From a virus, in IMG/VR virus record IMGVR_UViG_3300046791_000098, positions 1 through 40,206 of that record: a DNA stretch of 40,206 nucleotides. The stretch is one strand, 5' to 3'. The notes beneath the pieces were generated by a model. The model ran no database searches. It was not told the DNA's origin and worked only from the letters and a program-made list of their open reading frames with translations. Within the stretch, counting starts at the first letter, position 1. The number at the start of each line of letters is the position of its first letter. Shown here piece after piece: positions 3,587-28,387 of the stretch. A program made the position numbers and the translations under genes.

Positions 3587-4435
3587 ATGAAAGATATTTA
3601 TTCATACATGGACTTTGCAATTAATAATCCATTACAATTTAAAGATGTTGATGGTAGGAAGGGAATTGTAACTGGATATTTTGCAGACTTTGATACTCTT
3701 GATTCCGATGGTGATGTAATAATGAAAGGGGCTTTTACAAAGACTATCTCAGCAACCGGCCCACAAAGCAAACAGCCAAGAATAAAACACTTGCTTAATC
3801 ATGATCCTTCAAAACCGTTAGGAGTTTTAACAACTCTAAAAGAGGATAATAAGGGGCTTTATTATGAATCTAAATTAGGCAATCATTCTCTAGGTGTTGA
3901 TTTTGTTAAAATGGTTGAATCAAATTTGATCGCAGAACATTCCATAGGTTATCAAACTAAAAAGTTCAACCAAGTAACGGCATGGGAAGATTGGAAAGAA
4001 GGTGATGTGAGGCGTGAATTAACCGAAGTGAAACTTTGGGAAGGAAGTTCATTAACTGCATGGGGCGCAAATCCAAACACTCCTTTAACCGGAATTAAAT
4101 CTTTGGAGATAAATAAACTTTTAGGAAAAGCAGAGGCAATAGAAAAATTCTGTCGTGATACAAAAGCCTCAGACGAAACTATTGAAACTCTTTTATTATA
4201 TAACAAACAACTTTTACAAACTATCACGGATCTAACATCCAAACAAACGGATAACGCCATTGTTGACACGGATACAGAAGAAGTAGAAAAAGAAGTTGAG
4301 AAAAAACAATTACCAGATGTTGTAGAATGTCCTAAATGCAAAAAATTTAATTACACCAAAGGCAATGATTATATCAAATGCAGCGGATGTAAAAAAGTTT
4401 TTGTTATTGGGTCAAACTTCGTTCTGGACATTTAA
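3587..4435 (+). CDS. Prohead protease (HK97 family) with C-terminal zinc ribbon
   Basis: This serine protease cleaves the scaffold or delta segment of the capsid protein during head maturation. The N-terminal 170 residues fit the caudoviral prohead protease family: GYFADFDTLDSDGDVIMKGAF, a His72 within LLNHDPSK, and Ser119 within EHSIGY as the likely catalytic pair. A Glu/Lys-rich linker (about residues 225-240) follows. The last 40 residues then form a Cys4 zinc-ribbon-like module with CPKC at 248-251 and CSGC at 265-268. Such a ribbon is not a usual part of the family. The gene stands directly before the capsid gene, as expected. Confidence 0.9.
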   Translation: MKDIYSYMDFAINNPLQFKDVDGRKGIVTGYFADFDTLDSDGDVIMKGAFTKTISATGPQSKQPRIKHLLNHDPSKPLGVLTTLKEDNKGLYYESKLGNHSLGVDFVKMVESNLIAEHSIGYQTKKFNQVTAWEDWKEGDVRRELTEVKLWEGSSLTAWGANPNTPLTGIKSLEINKLLGKAEAIEKFCRDTKASDETIETLLLYNKQLLQTITDLTSKQTDNAIVDTDTEEVEKEVEKKQLPDVVECPKCKKFNYTKGNDYIKCSGCKKVFVIGSNFVLDI

Positions 4436-4455
4436 AAACTTTTAAAATTTAAACA

Positions 4456-5718
4456 ATGGCAGAAGAAATTAAAATAACCTCGCAGCAATTGCAGAGTTAT
4501 TTCAAAGCATTAAAAGACGAATTAGCGCAAGATCAAAGAGATCAGCTTGGCGCAATCGTTATTGAACTTGAAACCCTGAAGCACATAAAAGAAACAAGTG
4601 CTTCTAAAGCTGACATTACTGCGGCTCAGGAAAAGATTAATCAGATGTTCAAAGATCAAAAAGAAAACATTGATTCTCTTTTAGCAACAGCAACAAAGAA
4701 TCAGCCGATCATCGACAACTATCTTGCGAAGCAAAGTGCAGCGCAACGAAATGGTGGCGAAAAAATGAGCTTCAAAGATGGATGGGGGGCCGCTATTCAA
4801 GAGCATATTGGTATAGATCAAAAGACTCCTGAGTTCCAAAAAATGGCAAAAGAGTTTCAGAGTAACCAGGCAAGCAGGATGAATTTCAAATTGGATCTTA
4901 AAACAATGACCATTGCAACGACTGTAACGGGTGATACTGTTCAAAGTTATAATAGTCGTCAAGGTTTGGCTCCAGCTCAGGCAATCAACTTCAGGGATAT
5001 TCTTGATACAACTCCTTCTCCTGACGGTTCAATGGTCACTTACAGAGAAACAAATGCTGTTCAGGTTCCCGGTGTTCAAACAGAGGGTCAGGCTAAGACC
5101 GATTTGAACTACACATTTGCAGAGATCAAACAGATCAGTAATTACATTGCCGGTAAGACGACGTTCTCTAAACAATTGATGTACTCTTTGAATTGGTTGA
5201 TGACAACGCTTCCAAAAATTTTGATTAGGGATTTTTATAAGAAAGAGAATGATTATTTCTATATCAAGATGGCACAAGCTGCAACGGGTGTAAATACTTT
5301 TTCTCCAACTTCAACAGTAGATGCGGAAGAAATGATTCAGATGATTGCAAACCAAAAGCAAGCAAATTTTGATGCTTCTTATCTTTTGGTTGATTGGAGA
5401 CAATGGGCAAGAATAATGCTGACTAAACCACAGGATTATTCAATCCCAGGAGGTGTTATTATTGATCCTGCTACTGGATTTACGAGATTCGCAGGTACGC
5501 CAATGGTTGCCGCTTCATGGGCACAATCAGATCACGTTTTAGTTTATGACCGTTCACAGGTTGAAAGGGTTGAGACCGAAAGTTTAAATGTTACTTTCTC
5601 TTATGAGAATAACGACAACTTTGAAAAGAACATGGTAACCGCTAAAGTGGAGTGCTTTGAGGAACTTAATATCCTCAGACCAGACGGAATTATTTATAGG
5701 GATTTCGGTAATTCTTAA
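4456..5718 (+). CDS. Major capsid protein (HK97 fold)
   Basis: The 420-residue protein has the two-part layout of HK97-type capsid precursors. The first 100 or so residues are charged, helical and likely coiled-coil (a delta or scaffold-like domain). The shell domain follows from about residue 110, with recognisable stretches such as DTTPSPDGSMVTYRET, YIAGKTTFSKQLM and the C-terminal AKVECFEELNILRPDGI. The preceding protease would remove the N-terminal part. A strong hairpin terminator follows the stop codon, which could set its transcript level apart from the connector genes. The start is preceded by TTTTAAAATTTAAACA, with no Shine-Dalgarno sequence. Confidence 0.93.
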   Translation: MAEEIKITSQQLQSYFKALKDELAQDQRDQLGAIVIELETLKHIKETSASKADITAAQEKINQMFKDQKENIDSLLATATKNQPIIDNYLAKQSAAQRNGGEKMSFKDGWGAAIQEHIGIDQKTPEFQKMAKEFQSNQASRMNFKLDLKTMTIATTVTGDTVQSYNSRQGLAPAQAINFRDILDTTPSPDGSMVTYRETNAVQVPGVQTEGQAKTDLNYTFAEIKQISNYIAGKTTFSKQLMYSLNWLMTTLPKILIRDFYKKENDYFYIKMAQAATGVNTFSPTSTVDAEEMIQMIANQKQANFDASYLLVDWRQWARIMLTKPQDYSIPGGVIIDPATGFTRFAGTPMVAASWAQSDHVLVYDRSQVERVETESLNVTFSYENNDNFEKNMVTAKVECFEELNILRPDGIIYRDFGNS

Positions 5719-23847: not shown

Positions 23848-24477
23848 TTATTTGTTTAGGCTATCATACTTCCAGGCCTTCTCTTTCAGCCTTTCATTCT
23901 CTGCTTTTAGTTCCTCTAACTTTTCTAAAATCGGTTCTTCAATTTGTCTTTTATATTCAGGAAAATATTTTTCTGCTTCGGCTTGATTATACTCATGGGT
24001 CATGTTGTCCATTGTCAGGTCGTTGATCTTAGCTTTTAGTTCCTCTAACCCTTGCTTTAGGGATTCTATTTCTGAATCTTGGGACGAGATGACTTTTTTA
24101 TAGCTTTCTATTTCGTCGTGGTAATTATTGCATCTTGCCGTCATGTTTTCAAAAGTTTTTACAGATGCGCTTTCTTTCAGTTCTTCACACTCCTTCTCTT
24201 TCTCTGTGCATTTAGATTGAAGAGCGGTGTAACGGTTTCTGAATTTTTCTACAACTGATTTACTAATTGAATAAGTATTTGTTTTATCAGAAAGGTTATA
24301 AAGTTTATAAACATTAATTTGTTCTTTCAATCGAGTATTCTCCTTTTCCAATTCTTCCCGCCCATCGGTTGCAAGTTCTTCAGACCATAATATTTTACCG
24401 TTGTTGCCATCAATTACTTCCCAATGGCTATGTGCGCCGTTATCAGCAAATGCTTCGTTTAGTATTGGCTTTATCAT
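23848..24477 (-). CDS. Coiled-coil protein (209 aa)
   Basis: After a short folded-looking N-terminus (HWEVIDGNNGKILWSEEL, residues about 18-35), nearly the entire chain is charged heptad-like helix, with stretches such as EELEKENTRLKEQINVY and a C-terminal EKLEELKAENERLKEKAW. It is likely an extended dimer or trimer. No enzymatic motif is visible. It belongs to the leftward operon of small accessory genes. A similar coiled-coil gene lies upstream at 25089-25691. Confidence 0.7.
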   Translation of the reverse strand: MIKPILNEAFADNGAHSHWEVIDGNNGKILWSEELATDGREELEKENTRLKEQINVYKLYNLSDKTNTYSISKSVVEKFRNRYTALQSKCTEKEKECEELKESASVKTFENMTARCNNYHDEIESYKKVISSQDSEIESLKQGLEELKAKINDLTMDNMTHEYNQAEAEKYFPEYKRQIEEPILEKLEELKAENERLKEKAWKYDSLNK

Positions 24478-24488
24478 ATTTTATTTAT

Positions 24489-24659
24489 TTATAAAACCTC
24501 TGGTAAATCTTCGTCCTGTTCTATATATTCGCAATGTTCGCCACAACAAGGGCAGATGCCATAATCTTCTGAATCATTATCGCCGTTGCCCCTTGGTTCT
24601 TCACCACAGCAATCAGAAACTTTTAGCTTACCCATTCCTTCTTTCGGTATAGTTGACAT
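24489..24659 (-). CDS. Small Cys-rich, probably zinc-binding protein (56 aa)
   Basis: I start this gene at 24659; the longer frame to 24728 would run across a hairpin and the end of the upstream gene. The product has two cysteine pairs, DCCGEEP near residue 16 and CPCCGEHC near residue 36, then a very acidic tail. This fits a small zinc knuckle or ribbon. The same pattern (small Cys4 plus acid tail) recurs in the 59-residue gene at the operon's end. Confidence 0.65.
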   Translation of the reverse strand: MSTIPKEGMGKLKVSDCCGEEPRGNGDNDSEDYGICPCCGEHCEYIEQDEDLPEVL

Positions 24660-24680
24660 TGTTTTTATTTTATAATTCCC

Positions 24681-24694
24681 CCGTCTAAAGACGG
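24681..24694 (-). other. Intergenic hairpin before the Cys-rich gene
   Basis: CCGTC and GACGG pair around a four-base loop in the gap between two leftward genes. The 3' side is AT-rich (TAAAATAAAAACA) up to the ATG, so it may be an RNA processing or translation-control element rather than a terminator. Confidence 0.4.
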
Positions 24695-24701
24695 AAGCGG
24701 T
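24688..24701 (-). repeat. Intergenic 14-base repeat, copy 1
   Basis: Read on the minus strand, ACCGCTTCCGTCTT begins two bases after a stop codon. The identical 14-mer begins directly after the stop of the preceding gene at 25088-25075. Both copies are followed by an A/T-rich run and then an ATG. Confidence 0.7.
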
Positions 24702-24703
24702 GA

Positions 24704-25054
24704 TTAAGTGTTTTGTTGGTTGTACCATGTGATGAATTGAAGCGTATCTTTATAAACATCCTCAATTTCTATCATCTTAGTCTCCATGTTCGGATTTAAC
24801 GCCTTCCATAATCTCCGCCTTGCTTCTACAAAGGCTGAATCTCTAATTAACATTGGCTGCTTATCAGACATAAGTAATTCGTAAATAACCTTCAAGCATT
24901 TGTTATGAACGGGCATAAGTTCATTCCAGTTTACCTCATAGCAATATGCAGCTACCAACATTTTATCTGAATTAACCCACTCTTGTTGGTCATCAGTAAC
25001 ATTACCCATAAACTCAGCGATCAATTTATTTCCTTCTTGTATTTCCTTACTCAT
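24704..25054 (-). CDS. Conserved phage hypothetical protein (116 aa)
   Basis: The opening EGNKLIAEFMG and the later NWNELMPVHNKC resemble a family often seen in Bacteroidota phages (typically NKxIAEFMG, then SWDWLMPVVEK), whose function is unknown. The rest is helical, with an Arg-rich helix ARRRLWKAL and a closing aromatic helix. It stands between the two 14-base repeat copies in the leftward operon. Confidence 0.7.
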   Translation of the reverse strand: MSKEIQEGNKLIAEFMGNVTDDQQEWVNSDKMLVAAYCYEVNWNELMPVHNKCLKVIYELLMSDKQPMLIRDSAFVEARRRLWKALNPNMETKMIEIEDVYKDTLQFITWYNQQNT

Positions 25055-25074
25055 GGTTAATATTTTTATTTTTT

Positions 25075-25088
25075 AAGACGGAAGCGGT
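25075..25088 (-). repeat. Intergenic 14-base repeat, copy 2
   Basis: Identical to the copy at 24688-24701 and in the same orientation. It follows directly on the TAA of the gene at 25089-25691 and precedes an A-rich run and the ATG at 25054. Confidence 0.7.
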
Positions 25089-25691
25089 TTAGAGATTTAA
25101 AAGTTGTTTGAGTTCATTATAATCATTATCTTTTTCAATGTTACCATCGCTACCTATATGTTCGTAAAGCATTTCTATATTAGAAATCGCTTTCCCTAAC
25201 CCTTCCTCCAATTCACTTATCCTTGATTGAAGCTCTTGTCTATGTCTTGCTGCTTCCATAGCTTTATCACACCATTCTTTTGAAGATTTAGTTTTCTTTT
25301 CAAGTTCTATTTCTACATCTTTCAATCTTTCAACTTCCTTTTTCAACTCCTCACAGTCTCGGTCACCTGTGGGGGAGGGGGTAGGTTCAGGTATTGATTT
25401 TAGCCGCTGCCATTCTCTAAGGGCTTCGTGCCATTTCATAAATAAATTATGTGATTCTTCTGGCATTCTATCAACATCCAATCGGTCAGTATTCCAATCA
25501 GAATAAGTTGCTATGTTCAATTCAGCCGCTTCACATCTTTGTTTCCAATAATTTTCCGAAGAAGTAGCACAGGGTTCTATGGATTCGGATAGGTATTCAA
25601 AAAACTCTCTAATGCTGTTGCCAATCAATATGCCTCCGTTTCGCTTTGTTTCTTTACACCATTTTTTATACTGTTCTTCGGGGAATTTCAT
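25089..25691 (-). CDS. Hypothetical protein with C-terminal coiled coil (200 aa)
   Basis: The N-terminal 95 residues look globular and aromatic (EEQYKKWCKETKRNGG, NYWKQRCEAAELNIATYSDW). A Pro-rich linker (PEPTPSPTGD) leads into about 75 residues of coiled coil (CEELKKEVERLKDVEIELEKK). Family unknown. It is the second coiled-coil gene of this operon and lies three bases from the MazG-like gene upstream. Confidence 0.65.
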   Translation of the reverse strand: MKFPEEQYKKWCKETKRNGGILIGNSIREFFEYLSESIEPCATSSENYWKQRCEAAELNIATYSDWNTDRLDVDRMPEESHNLFMKWHEALREWQRLKSIPEPTPSPTGDRDCEELKKEVERLKDVEIELEKKTKSSKEWCDKAMEAARHRQELQSRISELEEGLGKAISNIEMLYEHIGSDGNIEKDNDYNELKQLLNL

Positions 25692-25694
25692 ATA

Positions 25695-26117
25695 TTAATA
25701 TTTTTTGCCGTGATACTTTTCTCTAAGTGAATTATACCGCATCTTTGCTTGGATATGCCATTCAAGATTAATTTTCTTAAATGCTGCTAAGTCCATAACA
25801 CGAATCATTATATCAGCTAATTCATCCTCGAAATTATTTTTAACTTCTTGTTCAAAAAGCTGCTTAAAATCAAAATCATCAATATCCTCTTGCTGAATTA
25901 CTGGCGGGTCACCATAACTCCAATCACAATACATATCCTTTCTATCTGCTTCCAATGCTTCTGAAACTTCACTATGAATAAGAGCAAGCATTTCACCAAT
26001 GTTTTTTTCTTTATCAAAAAAGCCTTTCTCTTTGGCATTATTATGGATTTCTGCGGCTAAATCATTTACACCACTTGCTTTCACCCATCTGCATCCCTGC
26101 CTATTATTATTTTCCAT
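25695..26117 (-). CDS. MazG-like nucleotide pyrophosphohydrolase
   Basis: The helical chain carries the paired acidic motifs of the MazG / all-alpha NTP-PPase group: LIHSEVSEALEA with Glu-x-x-Glu in the first helix, and FEDELADIMIRVMDLA with Glu-x-x-Asp in the second. Such enzymes hydrolyse NTPs or dNTPs to monophosphates, and phage versions may alter nucleotide pools or the host alarmone response. Length (140 residues) is normal for phage single-domain forms. It overlaps the upstream gene by 11 bases. Confidence 0.85.
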   Translation of the reverse strand: MENNNRQGCRWVKASGVNDLAAEIHNNAKEKGFFDKEKNIGEMLALIHSEVSEALEADRKDMYCDWSYGDPPVIQQEDIDDFDFKQLFEQEVKNNFEDELADIMIRVMDLAAFKKINLEWHIQAKMRYNSLREKYHGKKY

Positions 26118-26358
26118 GATTGAGTGTTTGTTGATTGAATAATTCTTGATTGATATATTTCAGGGCAGCCGTAACACACTTGGCACGATCAATGCAAGTT
26201 TTTATTTTATTATCATCAGCATCACTTCTGAATGTCACATTTCTATCATTATTGCCATGATTTAAATAAAATGCTTTTGTCTTGTAATTCAGGCTTGCTT
26301 CAATATATGCTTCGCCTTCAAAAAACTCAACCGTTGCCCATGTTTTTATTACTTTCAT
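26107..26358 (-). CDS. Hypothetical protein (83 aa)
   Basis: A small protein with an N-terminal beta meander (KTWATVEFFEGEAYIEASLNY broken near its middle) and a C-terminal helix (IDRAKCVTAALKYINQEL). No family recognised. It is coupled on both sides: an ATGA overlap with the DUF551 gene upstream and an 11-base overlap with the MazG-like gene downstream. Confidence 0.65.
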   Translation of the reverse strand: MKVIKTWATVEFFEGEAYIEASLNYKTKAFYLNHGNNDRNVTFRSDADDNKIKTCIDRAKCVTAALKYINQELFNQQTLNHGK

Positions 26359-26669
26359 ATCGGCTCTGGTTTATTTGGTAGCGGCATCCAATATTTAACA
26401 TCGTATCTTATTCTAAACGGAGCATACCAATCTCCGTCTTCTGTATATTTTGCTATGTTTATATGTGATTCTAAAAATTCATCCAACTCAAAAACTAAAA
26501 CTCTCTTTCCCGTTTCGGGCAATCCATCTTCCACCCTCGTCCATCCCTGCCTATTGAGGGAGGCGTATTCGGTCATTGCCGCTTTGATACTATCCAACAT
26601 AGTCCCATAAACTAATGGGCAATGCTTTTTCAGCACATCTTCAATAGTAGGTGTCATAGTCTTTTCCAT
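26355..26669 (-). CDS. DUF551-type protein (104 aa)
   Basis: The C-terminal 60 residues follow the DUF551 pattern common in phage genomes: GWTRVEDGLPETGKRVLVFE, then a strand-rich middle with GDWYAPF, and the closing VKYWMPLPNKPEP. Function is unknown in the family. The N-terminal 45 residues are helical and add an IEDVLKKHCP-like segment. A smaller protein at 32430-32621 shows a similar, degenerate pattern. Confidence 0.8.
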   Translation of the reverse strand: MEKTMTPTIEDVLKKHCPLVYGTMLDSIKAAMTEYASLNRQGWTRVEDGLPETGKRVLVFELDEFLESHINIAKYTEDGDWYAPFRIRYDVKYWMPLPNKPEPI

Positions 26670-26680
26670 GTTTAAAGGTT

Positions 26681-26947
26681 TTATCTATTGATTAGGGGGT
26701 TAGAGATTAGAGTTCTTCCTTTAGTGAGAAGTCCCATTTTCTTGCAATCTTCAACAGTTAAAAATTTCCATTTAATTACTGATTCTCTCGTTATGTTTCT
26801 ATCTATATTTTCTTCTTGTAAATTTAAAACAACGGTATCAATAGAGTCTGCCGCCATTACAATTTGCATTAATTTTTTAGGATTGTCAAATACCATATAC
26901 GCCTCAATAACTTTTGTCTTAATATATTTCTGCGGTTTATTCACCAT
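26681..26947 (-). CDS. Hypothetical protein (88 aa)
   Basis: A small basic protein of unknown family (KTKVIEAYMVFDNPKKLMQI near the start; FLTVEDCKKMGLLTKG near the end). It is the first gene downstream of the structured non-coding segment on the leftward transcript, with about 30 bases between the segment and its ATG. If that segment is a cis-acting leader, this gene and those after it would be the targets. Confidence 0.6.
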   Translation of the reverse strand: MVNKPQKYIKTKVIEAYMVFDNPKKLMQIVMAADSIDTVVLNLQEENIDRNITRESVIKWKFLTVEDCKKMGLLTKGRTLISNPLINR

Positions 26948-26975
26948 ACAATTATTTTAAATAGTTACAAAATAT

Positions 26976-27167
26976 CGGGTTGAATGGTAACAGACGAACT
27001 TTTGCAATTAGCGCATCGGTTCGGAGCATTACCTCTTTACTTTTTATCCCATCACACCACCAACCCGAATATATTAAAAGAACATTGGCGGCTACAAACC
27101 CCGATTACGACCAATGTTCACACGGGAGGGGCTGTCATAGCTTCATTGGTTTCCCCGTAGCCGCCAA
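26976..27167 (-). ncRNA. Structured non-coding element with mutually exclusive long-range stems
   Basis: This gap of about 230 bases has no convincing gene but dense pairing. Outer stem of the first domain (plus-strand coordinates): TTGGCGGCTAC at 27085-27095 with GTAGCCGCCAA at 27157-27167, enclosing ACCAATG 27110-27116 with CATTGGT 27144-27150. A competing perfect nine-pair stem is GAACATTGG 27080-27088 with CCAATGTTC 27111-27119; on the leftward transcript it is followed by TTTT, so it looks like a terminator. The second domain is nested: CGGGTTG 26976-26982 with CAACCCG 27061-27067, GGTAA 26986-26990 with TTACC 27029-27033, and CGAAC 26995-26999 with GTTCG 27019-27023. It is richer in GC than its surroundings. 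It may be a riboswitch-like leader, a free RNA or a small mobile element. The strand is inferred from the operon. Confidence 0.5.
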
Positions 27168-27174
27168 ATAATTT

Positions 27175-27261
27175 TTAAACCAGAACTTCGCTGCCTTCTT
27201 TGCTTGTGATCACTCTCAAAGAAGGTTTGAAATTAAAATCCTTTAATGCTTTGTCTTTCAT
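27175..27261 (-). pseudogene. Displaced 3' end of the gene interrupted by the HNH endonuclease
   Basis: This 28-codon frame starts at an ATG that overlaps the HNH gene's TGA. Its residues 5-17 (ALKDFNFKPSLRV) match the C-terminal part of the gene on the far side of the HNH gene (ALKDFDFKPSLRV) with one change, while the DNA differs at most third positions. After that the two tails diverge. I infer that the HNH gene was inserted near the end of that gene. The true or an older 3' end now lies here, while the upstream gene carries a replacement end. Confidence 0.65.
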
Positions 27262-27692
27262 AAAAAAGATTCATTTAAAATAATGCCCTTTCTTTTACAT
27301 TTTTCAATATGCTTTTTACAGTATTTTTCTCTGCCCTTATACGGCCTTTTGTTTCCAGTATTCCCCTTACACTTAATCCCAATTCTTATACGGTGATTAA
27401 TGTTTTCTTGTAGCGTACACCACTCTAAATTTATCGCCCTATCATCTGTCTTGATCCCGTTTATATGGTTTACCTGTGGTAGATTATCTGGATTAGGATG
27501 AAATGCCAATGCGACAACCCTTGCTATGTGCCTATTATATGGTTTGTTTTTAACACGAATACCTATACAATACCTGCCGTCTCTTTTACATAAATACTTC
27601 TTTCTAAGTCTTCCGGTTTTGGCGTTTCTAATATCGCCGTTTTCGCTAACTTCATACATCTCAAATAGTATTTCAGACAATCTCCATTCCAT
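27258..27692 (-). CDS. HNH homing endonuclease with NUMOD4 domain
   Basis: The 144-residue protein has an N-terminal NUMOD4-like DNA-binding stretch (MYEVSENGDIRNAKTGRL) and an HNH_3-type nuclease with HIARVVALAFHPNP, then VNHINGIKTDD and INLEWCTLQENINHR. A basic tail rich in Lys and Cys follows. These free-standing enzymes cut a target gene in related phages and spread by repair. It sits between a gene and a stray copy of that gene's end, with a two-base gap on one side and an ATGA overlap on the other. Confidence 0.88.
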   Translation of the reverse strand: MEWRLSEILFEMYEVSENGDIRNAKTGRLRKKYLCKRDGRYCIGIRVKNKPYNRHIARVVALAFHPNPDNLPQVNHINGIKTDDRAINLEWCTLQENINHRIRIGIKCKGNTGNKRPYKGREKYCKKHIEKCKRKGIILNESFL

Positions 27693-27694
27693 AA

Positions 27695-28042
27695 TTAATA
27701 ATTTCCTACTATTTTATTACGCTCTAATTCCACATCAACATCTAAAACATTAGAAACCCTTAGCGACGGCTTAAAGTCAAAATCTTTAAGAGCCTTCCCT
27801 AAAGCTTCAAAGAACTCTTCTTCGGAAATGTGTTCCCATTCTTTATAGGCTTTTACAATATCTCTTTTTGCGCCCTCAATAGAATCATTAGAAAGGAATG
27901 TTCTTTTACCTTCTATCTGAAAAATGTTGATTACACATTCTTCAATTACTCCTAAATAGGAAAAAGAATTTTTAAAAAAAGCAGGAGTTTCAATTTCAAT
28001 TTCTACTTCCTGTTCGATGTTTACTTTGGTTTTTAGTAGCAT
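27695..28042 (-). CDS. Hypothetical protein, first gene of the leftward operon (115 aa)
   Basis: The protein starts with a beta hairpin (LLKTKVNIEQEVEIEIETP). It is then helical (GAKRDIVKAYKEWEHISEEEF, cut here by no known motif) and ends with ALKDFDFKPSLRV followed by a short acidic tail. No family is known to me. Its promoter lies in the divergent region just upstream. The 3' end seems to have been rebuilt beside the HNH insertion, since a diverged copy of the ALKDF segment lies beyond that gene. Confidence 0.65.
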   Translation of the reverse strand: MLLKTKVNIEQEVEIEIETPAFFKNSFSYLGVIEECVINIFQIEGKRTFLSNDSIEGAKRDIVKAYKEWEHISEEEFFEALGKALKDFDFKPSLRVSNVLDVDVELERNKIVGNY

Positions 28043-28071
28043 AACGTTTGTTTTATTGGTTTGTTAATGAT

Positions 28072-28101
28072 GCAAATTAAACAGTCTTTTTGATACCACA
28101 A
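28072..28101 (-). promoter_or_regulatory. Leftward promoter of the divergent region
   Basis: On the minus strand a TTG (28101-28099) is followed after 19 bases by TAATTTGC (28079-28072), close to the Bacteroidota pattern TTG-N19-TAnnTTTG. The start codon at 28042 lies about 30 bases further on. This is the only gap in the leftward block that could hold a promoter before its first gene. Confidence 0.5.
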
Positions 28102-28131
28102 AATATTTATTAATAATTTTCAATAAAATAT

Positions 28132-28161
28132 TTGTTTATTTAAAATAAACCGTTATCTTAG
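28132..28161 (+). promoter_or_regulatory. Rightward promoter of the divergent region (leaderless start)
   Basis: TTG at 28132-28134 and TATCTTAG at 28154-28161 are 19 bases apart, matching TTG-N19-TAnnTTTG with one change. The ATG of the regulator starts four bases after the -7 box. Transcription should therefore begin at or beside the ATG, giving a leaderless or nearly leaderless message. Confidence 0.6.
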
Positions 28162-28165
28162 CATT

Positions 28166-28387
28166 ATGAAAGTAAAAGAAATAACACAAAAAACAGCAGT
28201 AACCCTTGATGAAAAGGGAATATTGCAGCGCCTTTCTAATGGGGAAAGGACGGAAATTGTAGCTGAAGAATTTGAGCTATCGCTAAGCACATTTGCTACA
28301 AAACTAAGGGAGATGCGTATTAAATATAAATGTGAGAACACAACGCATTTGGTAGCCTATTTTTTAAGAAAAGGAATAATAAATTAA
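28166..28387 (+). CDS. Small LuxR-type helix-turn-helix regulator (73 aa)
   Basis: The chain matches the DNA-binding domain of the LuxR/GerE group without any sensor part: QRLSNGERTEIVAEEFELS, recognition helix STFATKLREMRIKYK, then NTTHLVAYFLRKGII at the C-terminus. It is the first gene of the rightward early block and faces the leftward promoter. It is the best candidate for a regulator of the divergent region, either activating early genes or controlling the late switch. No repressor of the CI type accompanies it. Confidence 0.75.
   Translation: MKVKEITQKTAVTLDEKGILQRLSNGERTEIVAEEFELSLSTFATKLREMRIKYKCENTTHLVAYFLRKGIIN

Follow-up and report, generated by a model that had tools for sequence, protein, structure and literature searches.

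A two-hairpin orphan element in the leftward accessory-gene operon of a phage, possibly an intercistronic control element

Why should a tightly packed phage genome hold, in its largest intergenic gap, two adjacent imperfect palindromes that together span ~190 bases? The gap measures 227 nt and lies in the leftward operon of an IMG/VR virus record of 40,206 bases, analysed here over its whole length (the window), which carries genes for terminase, portal, endolysin, methylase, NinG and primosomal-type proteins. Among 85k bacterial and archaeal genomes, the nearest match to the large terminase is a prophage copy in Paraflavitalea (Chitinophagaceae), at 49%, so the host of the phage is likely, but not proven, to belong to Bacteroidota. 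No integrase was found among the window proteins scanned, and ARAGORN found neither tmRNA nor tRNA genes in the window. The features of the locus are collected in Table 1. Further to the right, the divergent intergenic region 28043–28165 has Bacteroidota-style promoter candidates on both strands.

Table 1. Positions of the two-hairpin element, its alternative stems and the surrounding features (window coordinates unless a related record, L131–L133, is named)
Feature	Position	Strand	Description	Basis
D1 hairpin domain	26976–27067		Outer 7-bp stem CGGGTTG, 26976–26982/27061–27067, with GGT/ACC continuation	Inverted-repeat search and shuffles
D1 inner stems			5 bp each: CGAAC/GTTCG and GGTAA/TTACC	Seen by eye
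D2 hairpin domain	27085–27167		Perfect 11-bp stem TTGGCGGCTAC/GTAGCCGCCAA, 27085–27095/27157–27167	Inverted-repeat search and shuffles
D2 inner 7-bp option	27110–27116/27144–27150		ACCAATG/CATTGGT	
Competing 9-bp hairpin	27076–27119, including T tract	-	GAACATTGG/CCAATGTTC, arms 27080–27088/27111–27119	
Extra 9-bp inverted repeat	27194–27225		CCTTCTTTG/CAAAGAAGG, inside the 28-aa ORF	
Next downstream gene	26681–26947	-	Orphan 88-aa protein, start codon 29 nt past D1	
28-aa ORF	27175–27261	-	MKDKALKDFNFKPSLRVITSKEGSEVLV; displaced native 3' end of gene 27695–28042	
NUMOD4/HNH_3 homing-type endonuclease gene	27258–27692	-	Free-standing, between gene 27695–28042 and the 28-aa ORF	
First gene of leftward operon	27695–28042	-	Homologous in four related phage records	
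Promoter candidate	Ends 28073	-	TTG-18-TTAATTTG, upstream of 28042	
Promoter candidate	Ends 28161	+	TTG-19-TATCTTAG	
Hairpin after the same gene in relatives	L131 ~4285–4310; L132/L133 ~4600–4625	-	GGGATTTGGTTTGGCCGATYCCCTTTTT, conserved	

The preliminary description of this DNA listed nested stems of 11, 7, 7, 5 and 5 pairs, and these stand: the long stems were found computationally and the 5-bp ones by eye. The perfect nine-pair hairpin that it placed before TTTT on the leftward strand is likewise present in the sequence (AAAA at 27076–27079 on the + strand). The two folds are indeed mutually exclusive, because they share arms: CATTGG, present at 27083 and 27144, is complementary to the sequence at 27111. 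In leftward RNA, arm 3 (GUAGCCGCCAAUGUUC) has a choice of partners, arm 1 over 11 bp or arm 2 over 9 bp, with UUUU following the latter. In dinucleotide shuffles of the element, an 11-bp inverted repeat was reached in 4 of 2000, and two inverted repeats of at least 9 bp, one of them at least 11 bp, in none of 2000. Nowhere else does the window contain a GC-rich inverted repeat of this length, and one of 20 whole-window shuffles had such a repeat. Compared with 200 dinucleotide shuffles, the fold of D1 has z-scores of -4.2 (+) and -2.8 (-) and that of D2 of -3.4 (+) and -1.9 (-); on the + strand, no shuffle of either domain (0/200) matches the native folding. Over the element as a whole the - strand folds in an ordinary manner (z -0.56), and among 1334 sliding windows of the phage the element ranks 50th (+) and 107th (-). 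The structure is genuine and exceeds chance expectation, yet other parts of the phage are more structured. The odd base composition of the gap was borne out as well: the element has 47% GC versus 35% for the window, a level that just 0.5% of 192-nt windows attain.

The history of the locus can be read from the four closest phage relatives (L130–L133). In L131 (IMGVR_UViG_3300044726_000065), the first gene of the operon is uninterrupted (4323–4664) and ends ..DKALKDFNFKPSLRHITAKEGSKVTI / ..EALDKALKDFNFKPSLRHITAKEGSKVTI. In the window, the same gene has an altered, partly duplicated (re-encoded) end, ..GKALKDFDFKPSLRVSNVLD.., and the 28-aa ORF is 81% identical to the native gene end in L131. The HNH gene that separates the two has the properties of a free-standing HNH homing endonuclease, namely, NUMOD4 (with a score slightly below the curated cut-off), HNH_3 and a position within a gene that is intact in relatives. 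It is thus predicted to be a homing-endonuclease insertion near the 3' end of the gene, with the native end displaced; Rfam gave no match to a group I intron around it. Similarity to L131 runs through the native gene end and ceases approximately at the stop codon, where the two-hairpin element starts. None of the four relatives has the element. In the equivalent slot, L131, L132 and L133 carry a short terminator-like GC-rich hairpin with T5, GGGATTTGGTTTGGCCGATYCCCTTTTT, unrelated in sequence to the element, and L130 has another unrelated sequence with ordinary folding. Since homology stops at the native stop codon and the relatives carry other sequence there, the element and the downstream orphan gene, for whose protein searches gave no homologue, probably represent a replacement in this slot. 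The element is therefore foreign to its place, as had been suspected, but its proposed arrival together with the HNH gene did not hold up: the HNH insertion point lies across the displaced native gene end (27175–27261) and, as far as relatives show, the two would be separate events.

Two further features of these phages deserve mention. Small accessory genes in the window (23850–26670, - strand) and in L130–L133, otherwise unrelated, share near-identical stretches of 30–62 bp, which look like recombination linkers for gene shuffling; for example, window 25032–25091 nearly matches L131 3545–3604, part of which is repeated at L131 3863–3898. Furthermore, L131 has a permuted two-piece tmRNA gene (218–550, + strand; ARAGORN tag DAKVIKMNQPVAQRAAA*), which matches Rfam RF04321 at 55.4 bits versus a cut-off of 47. 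Permuted tmRNAs have been described in Alpha- and Betaproteobacteria and Cyanobacteria (PMC11915505) and in some aquatic phages (PMC9004378); one in a phage whose hosts appear to be Bacteroidota looks unusual.

The preliminary description likened the element to intergenic elements of other Bacteroidota sequences and proposed comparison with Rfam and a covariance-model search. Neither these nor blastn and pattern searches gave a member of such a family. In Rfam 15, no family reached the gathering threshold and no bacterial or near-cut-off match appeared even at E 10, the best permissive matches being to eukaryotic miRNA, snoRNA or lncRNA models with E>1. Blastn against phage and plasmid records found no relative of the element, exact and gapped patterns on the loops and both stems found none in IMG/VR (in this collection the element's own record is apparently not included), and a reading-frame search of IMG/VR and the 85k genomes gave no confirmed relative. 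No copy was found in 30 related phage loci or 20 whole related virus records, and blastn detected no homologue in ~870 Bacteroidota genomes (396 from Chitinophagaceae, 326 from across Bacteroidota and 148 from the Spirosoma order). Single-sequence covariance models run on 151 and 199 genomes (~350) also retrieved no homologue. As the element is known from a single sequence, its stems offer no covariation. These results are to be read with the scope of the searches in mind: few candidates were scored per genome, single-sequence covariance models are weak and the genomes searched need not include that of the true host.

The matches that did appear are regarded as chance, judged by context where they were inspected. 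The only blastn match in the 396 Chitinophagaceae genomes, of 22 nt, lies inside a different, simple-repeat-flanked sequence; blastn at E 10 against 14 genomes, mostly of Bacteroidota, produced only chance matches of 14–36 nt, and those among them that were inspected in full (L093, L095, L096 and L101) are unlike the element. The motif TTCGG..ACCAATGT..ACNGG matched once in 395 Bacteroidota genomes, which equals the reversed-control count, and a 46-nt covariance-model match proved to be an ordinary terminator-like hairpin. No replication-origin iterons were found in 26600–28200, and core sites matching an integron attC were not seen by eye. Since no second copy was found, the element looks like a one-off insert.

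What could such an insert do? We favour, with a probability of about 0.38, the possibility that it is an intercistronic transcript-control element (attenuator or stabiliser), an orphan recently acquired by the leftward accessory-gene operon. This reading is rated most likely because the same slot carries the terminator-like hairpin in three related records. Moreover, the folds of the individual domains beat shuffles, no other intergenic gap in this compact genome is as wide, homology to L131 continues through the gene end before it stops, and a promoter-like site is present on the - strand upstream of 28042. Transcribed leftward, D1 and D2 would form stable RNA hairpins that may set how strongly the accessory genes beyond them are expressed, through pausing or incomplete termination as well as by shielding the 3' end of the upstream mRNA once it has been processed. 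On the other hand, the + strand folds better than the transcribed one, no homologue and hence no covariation is available, and the 3' side of D2 on the - strand continues with TGTTCTTTTAATAT, without a U-run.

A more elaborate way in which a control element could work involves the competing fold. On the - strand, the 11-bp fold is computed at -33.0 kcal/mol, the fold with the inner 7-bp stem at -30.5 kcal/mol and the nine-pair fold at -24.3 kcal/mol. The energy gap of about 9 kcal/mol is reflected in pair probabilities of 0.98 for the 11-bp stem and 1.7e-7 for the nine-pair hairpin, and growing transcripts from 27261, folded in silico, have the 11-bp stem at all lengths tested. Masking 27157–27182 in silico, and thereby the first D2 arm, lifts the probability of the nine-pair hairpin from ~0 to 0.99. 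The stop codon of the 28-aa ORF (27175–27177) lies 7–8 nt before this arm, and judging from the coordinates a ribosome terminating there would cover the masked stretch. Thus, a ribosome finishing the 28-aa ORF might cause the nine-pair hairpin with its U4 to form instead, and translation and downstream transcription could be coupled, although we consider this weaker than the route outlined above. An intrinsic terminator has a stable G+C-rich stem, a short loop and then immediately ~5 or more U, whereas in the nine-pair hairpin 4 pairs are G-C, the loop measures 22 nt and no more than U4 follows, and the terminator scan reports none on the - strand at the element. This also weighs against the previously suggested attenuator or riboswitch at the head of an operon, the terminator of which would have a probability of ~1e-7 unless the first arm is masked. 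Furthermore, there is a plausible promoter upstream of 27695–28042, so three ORFs, or ~0.9 kb of the operon, would precede the element. The boldest version is unlikely: a new ~200-nt phage regulatory RNA, built from two hairpin domains, would act as a three-segment switch thrown by translation of the gene directly upstream, tying an early gene to the downstream accessory cassette, and relatives would employ hairpins of unrelated sequence there to the same end.

Two other explanations come close behind the control element. The more probable of them, though still doubtful, is that a passive palindromic insertion, similar to REP, MITE or Rickettsia palindromic elements, landed in the gap and has no role in the phage. 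The two neighbouring imperfect palindromes with strand-symmetric Watson–Crick pairing are consistent with this, as are the foreign GC content, the sharp edge at the gene end and the absence from relatives. However, REP/MITE-like palindromic elements are normally multi-copy in some host. Here, in searches that were not exhaustive given the host, the multiple copies per genome or lineage that define such dispersed repeats were not found: the window has a single copy, searches of the 20 related virus records and, by blastn, of the Bacteroidota genomes gave none, and no convincing target duplication is apparent. Slightly less probable is that the gap holds an intergenic leftover or a decayed gene, in which the hairpins are an accident of composition and history (three CATTGG copies) and have no function. 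Such an origin would agree with the modest sliding-window ranks, the ordinary folding of the element as a whole on the - strand and the lack of conservation anywhere. It is harder to reconcile with the fact that no shuffle of either domain folds equally well on the + strand and that both long inverted repeats never occurred together in the shuffled elements.

An improbable alternative is a rightward ~200-nt small RNA, antisense to the operon, with D2 as its terminator (the 11-bp GC-rich stem, then AATAATTTTT) and possibly with a short reading frame. The most significant folds are indeed those of the + strand, and ORFs of 63 aa (26980–27171) and 58 aa (26984–27160) span the element on this strand, both in 0/2000 shuffles. 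However, the promoter scan of the + strand upstream gave no match, the D2 loop is 61 nt long and the T-run begins 4–5 nt past the stem. Nor do the frames show the homologues or typical codon use of a protein-coding gene: their codon scores rank with the lowest of the gene range, there is no family or tblastn match, and single-sequence structure models have low confidence (pLDDT 60 and 48). When the 58-aa frame was searched in 198 genomes, weak matches (E 0.01 or worse) were obtained, and the four inspected lie in unrelated sequence. Finally, a metabolite riboswitch that controls the downstream genes, whether its class is known or new, would account for two mutually exclusive folds but is very improbable, as Rfam was silent on bacterial families, no search found a homologue with a conserved aptamer-like core or covarying stems upstream of related genes, the position is not the operon head and the downstream genes are orphan accessory genes.

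If functional, the element would point to a fast-turnover control slot, in which closely related phages place unrelated hairpins where a conserved gene borders on a reshuffled set of accessory genes. At present, it is a structurally sound orphan known in one copy and a candidate to revisit as more phage relatives appear.

Among known systems, REP/BIME, MITE and Rickettsia palindromic elements are similar in being palindromic, in size (~190 bp), foreign composition and partly open frames, whereas our element is single copy as far as searched and has no recognised target duplication or partner transposase. The free-standing homing endonucleases mobE and segF of T4 have associated terminators (PMC2988022); here, too, an HNH gene sits between phage genes with nearby secondary structure that might affect the host operon, although the element lies outside the HNH gene, past the displaced native gene end. 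In leader-peptide attenuators such as those of trp/his, translation of a short ORF selects between terminator and antiterminator folds. Similarly, a short ORF here ends a few nucleotides before a three-segment fold (arms 1:3 versus 2:3), which switches when arm 1 is masked, in silico only. By contrast with those leaders, the ORF is a displaced ordinary gene end without a regulatory codon run, and the terminator is weak and not at the operon head. Compared with the intrinsic terminators and attenuators of phage operons, the element is much larger, with two domains, long loops and U4 only after the competing hairpin, and its sequence is unrelated to that of the slot hairpin of L131–L133. Nevertheless, with these systems, including the T5-tailed hairpin of L131–L133, it shares its location directly behind the stop codon of a leftward operon gene, a G+C-containing stem and possible mutually exclusive folds.
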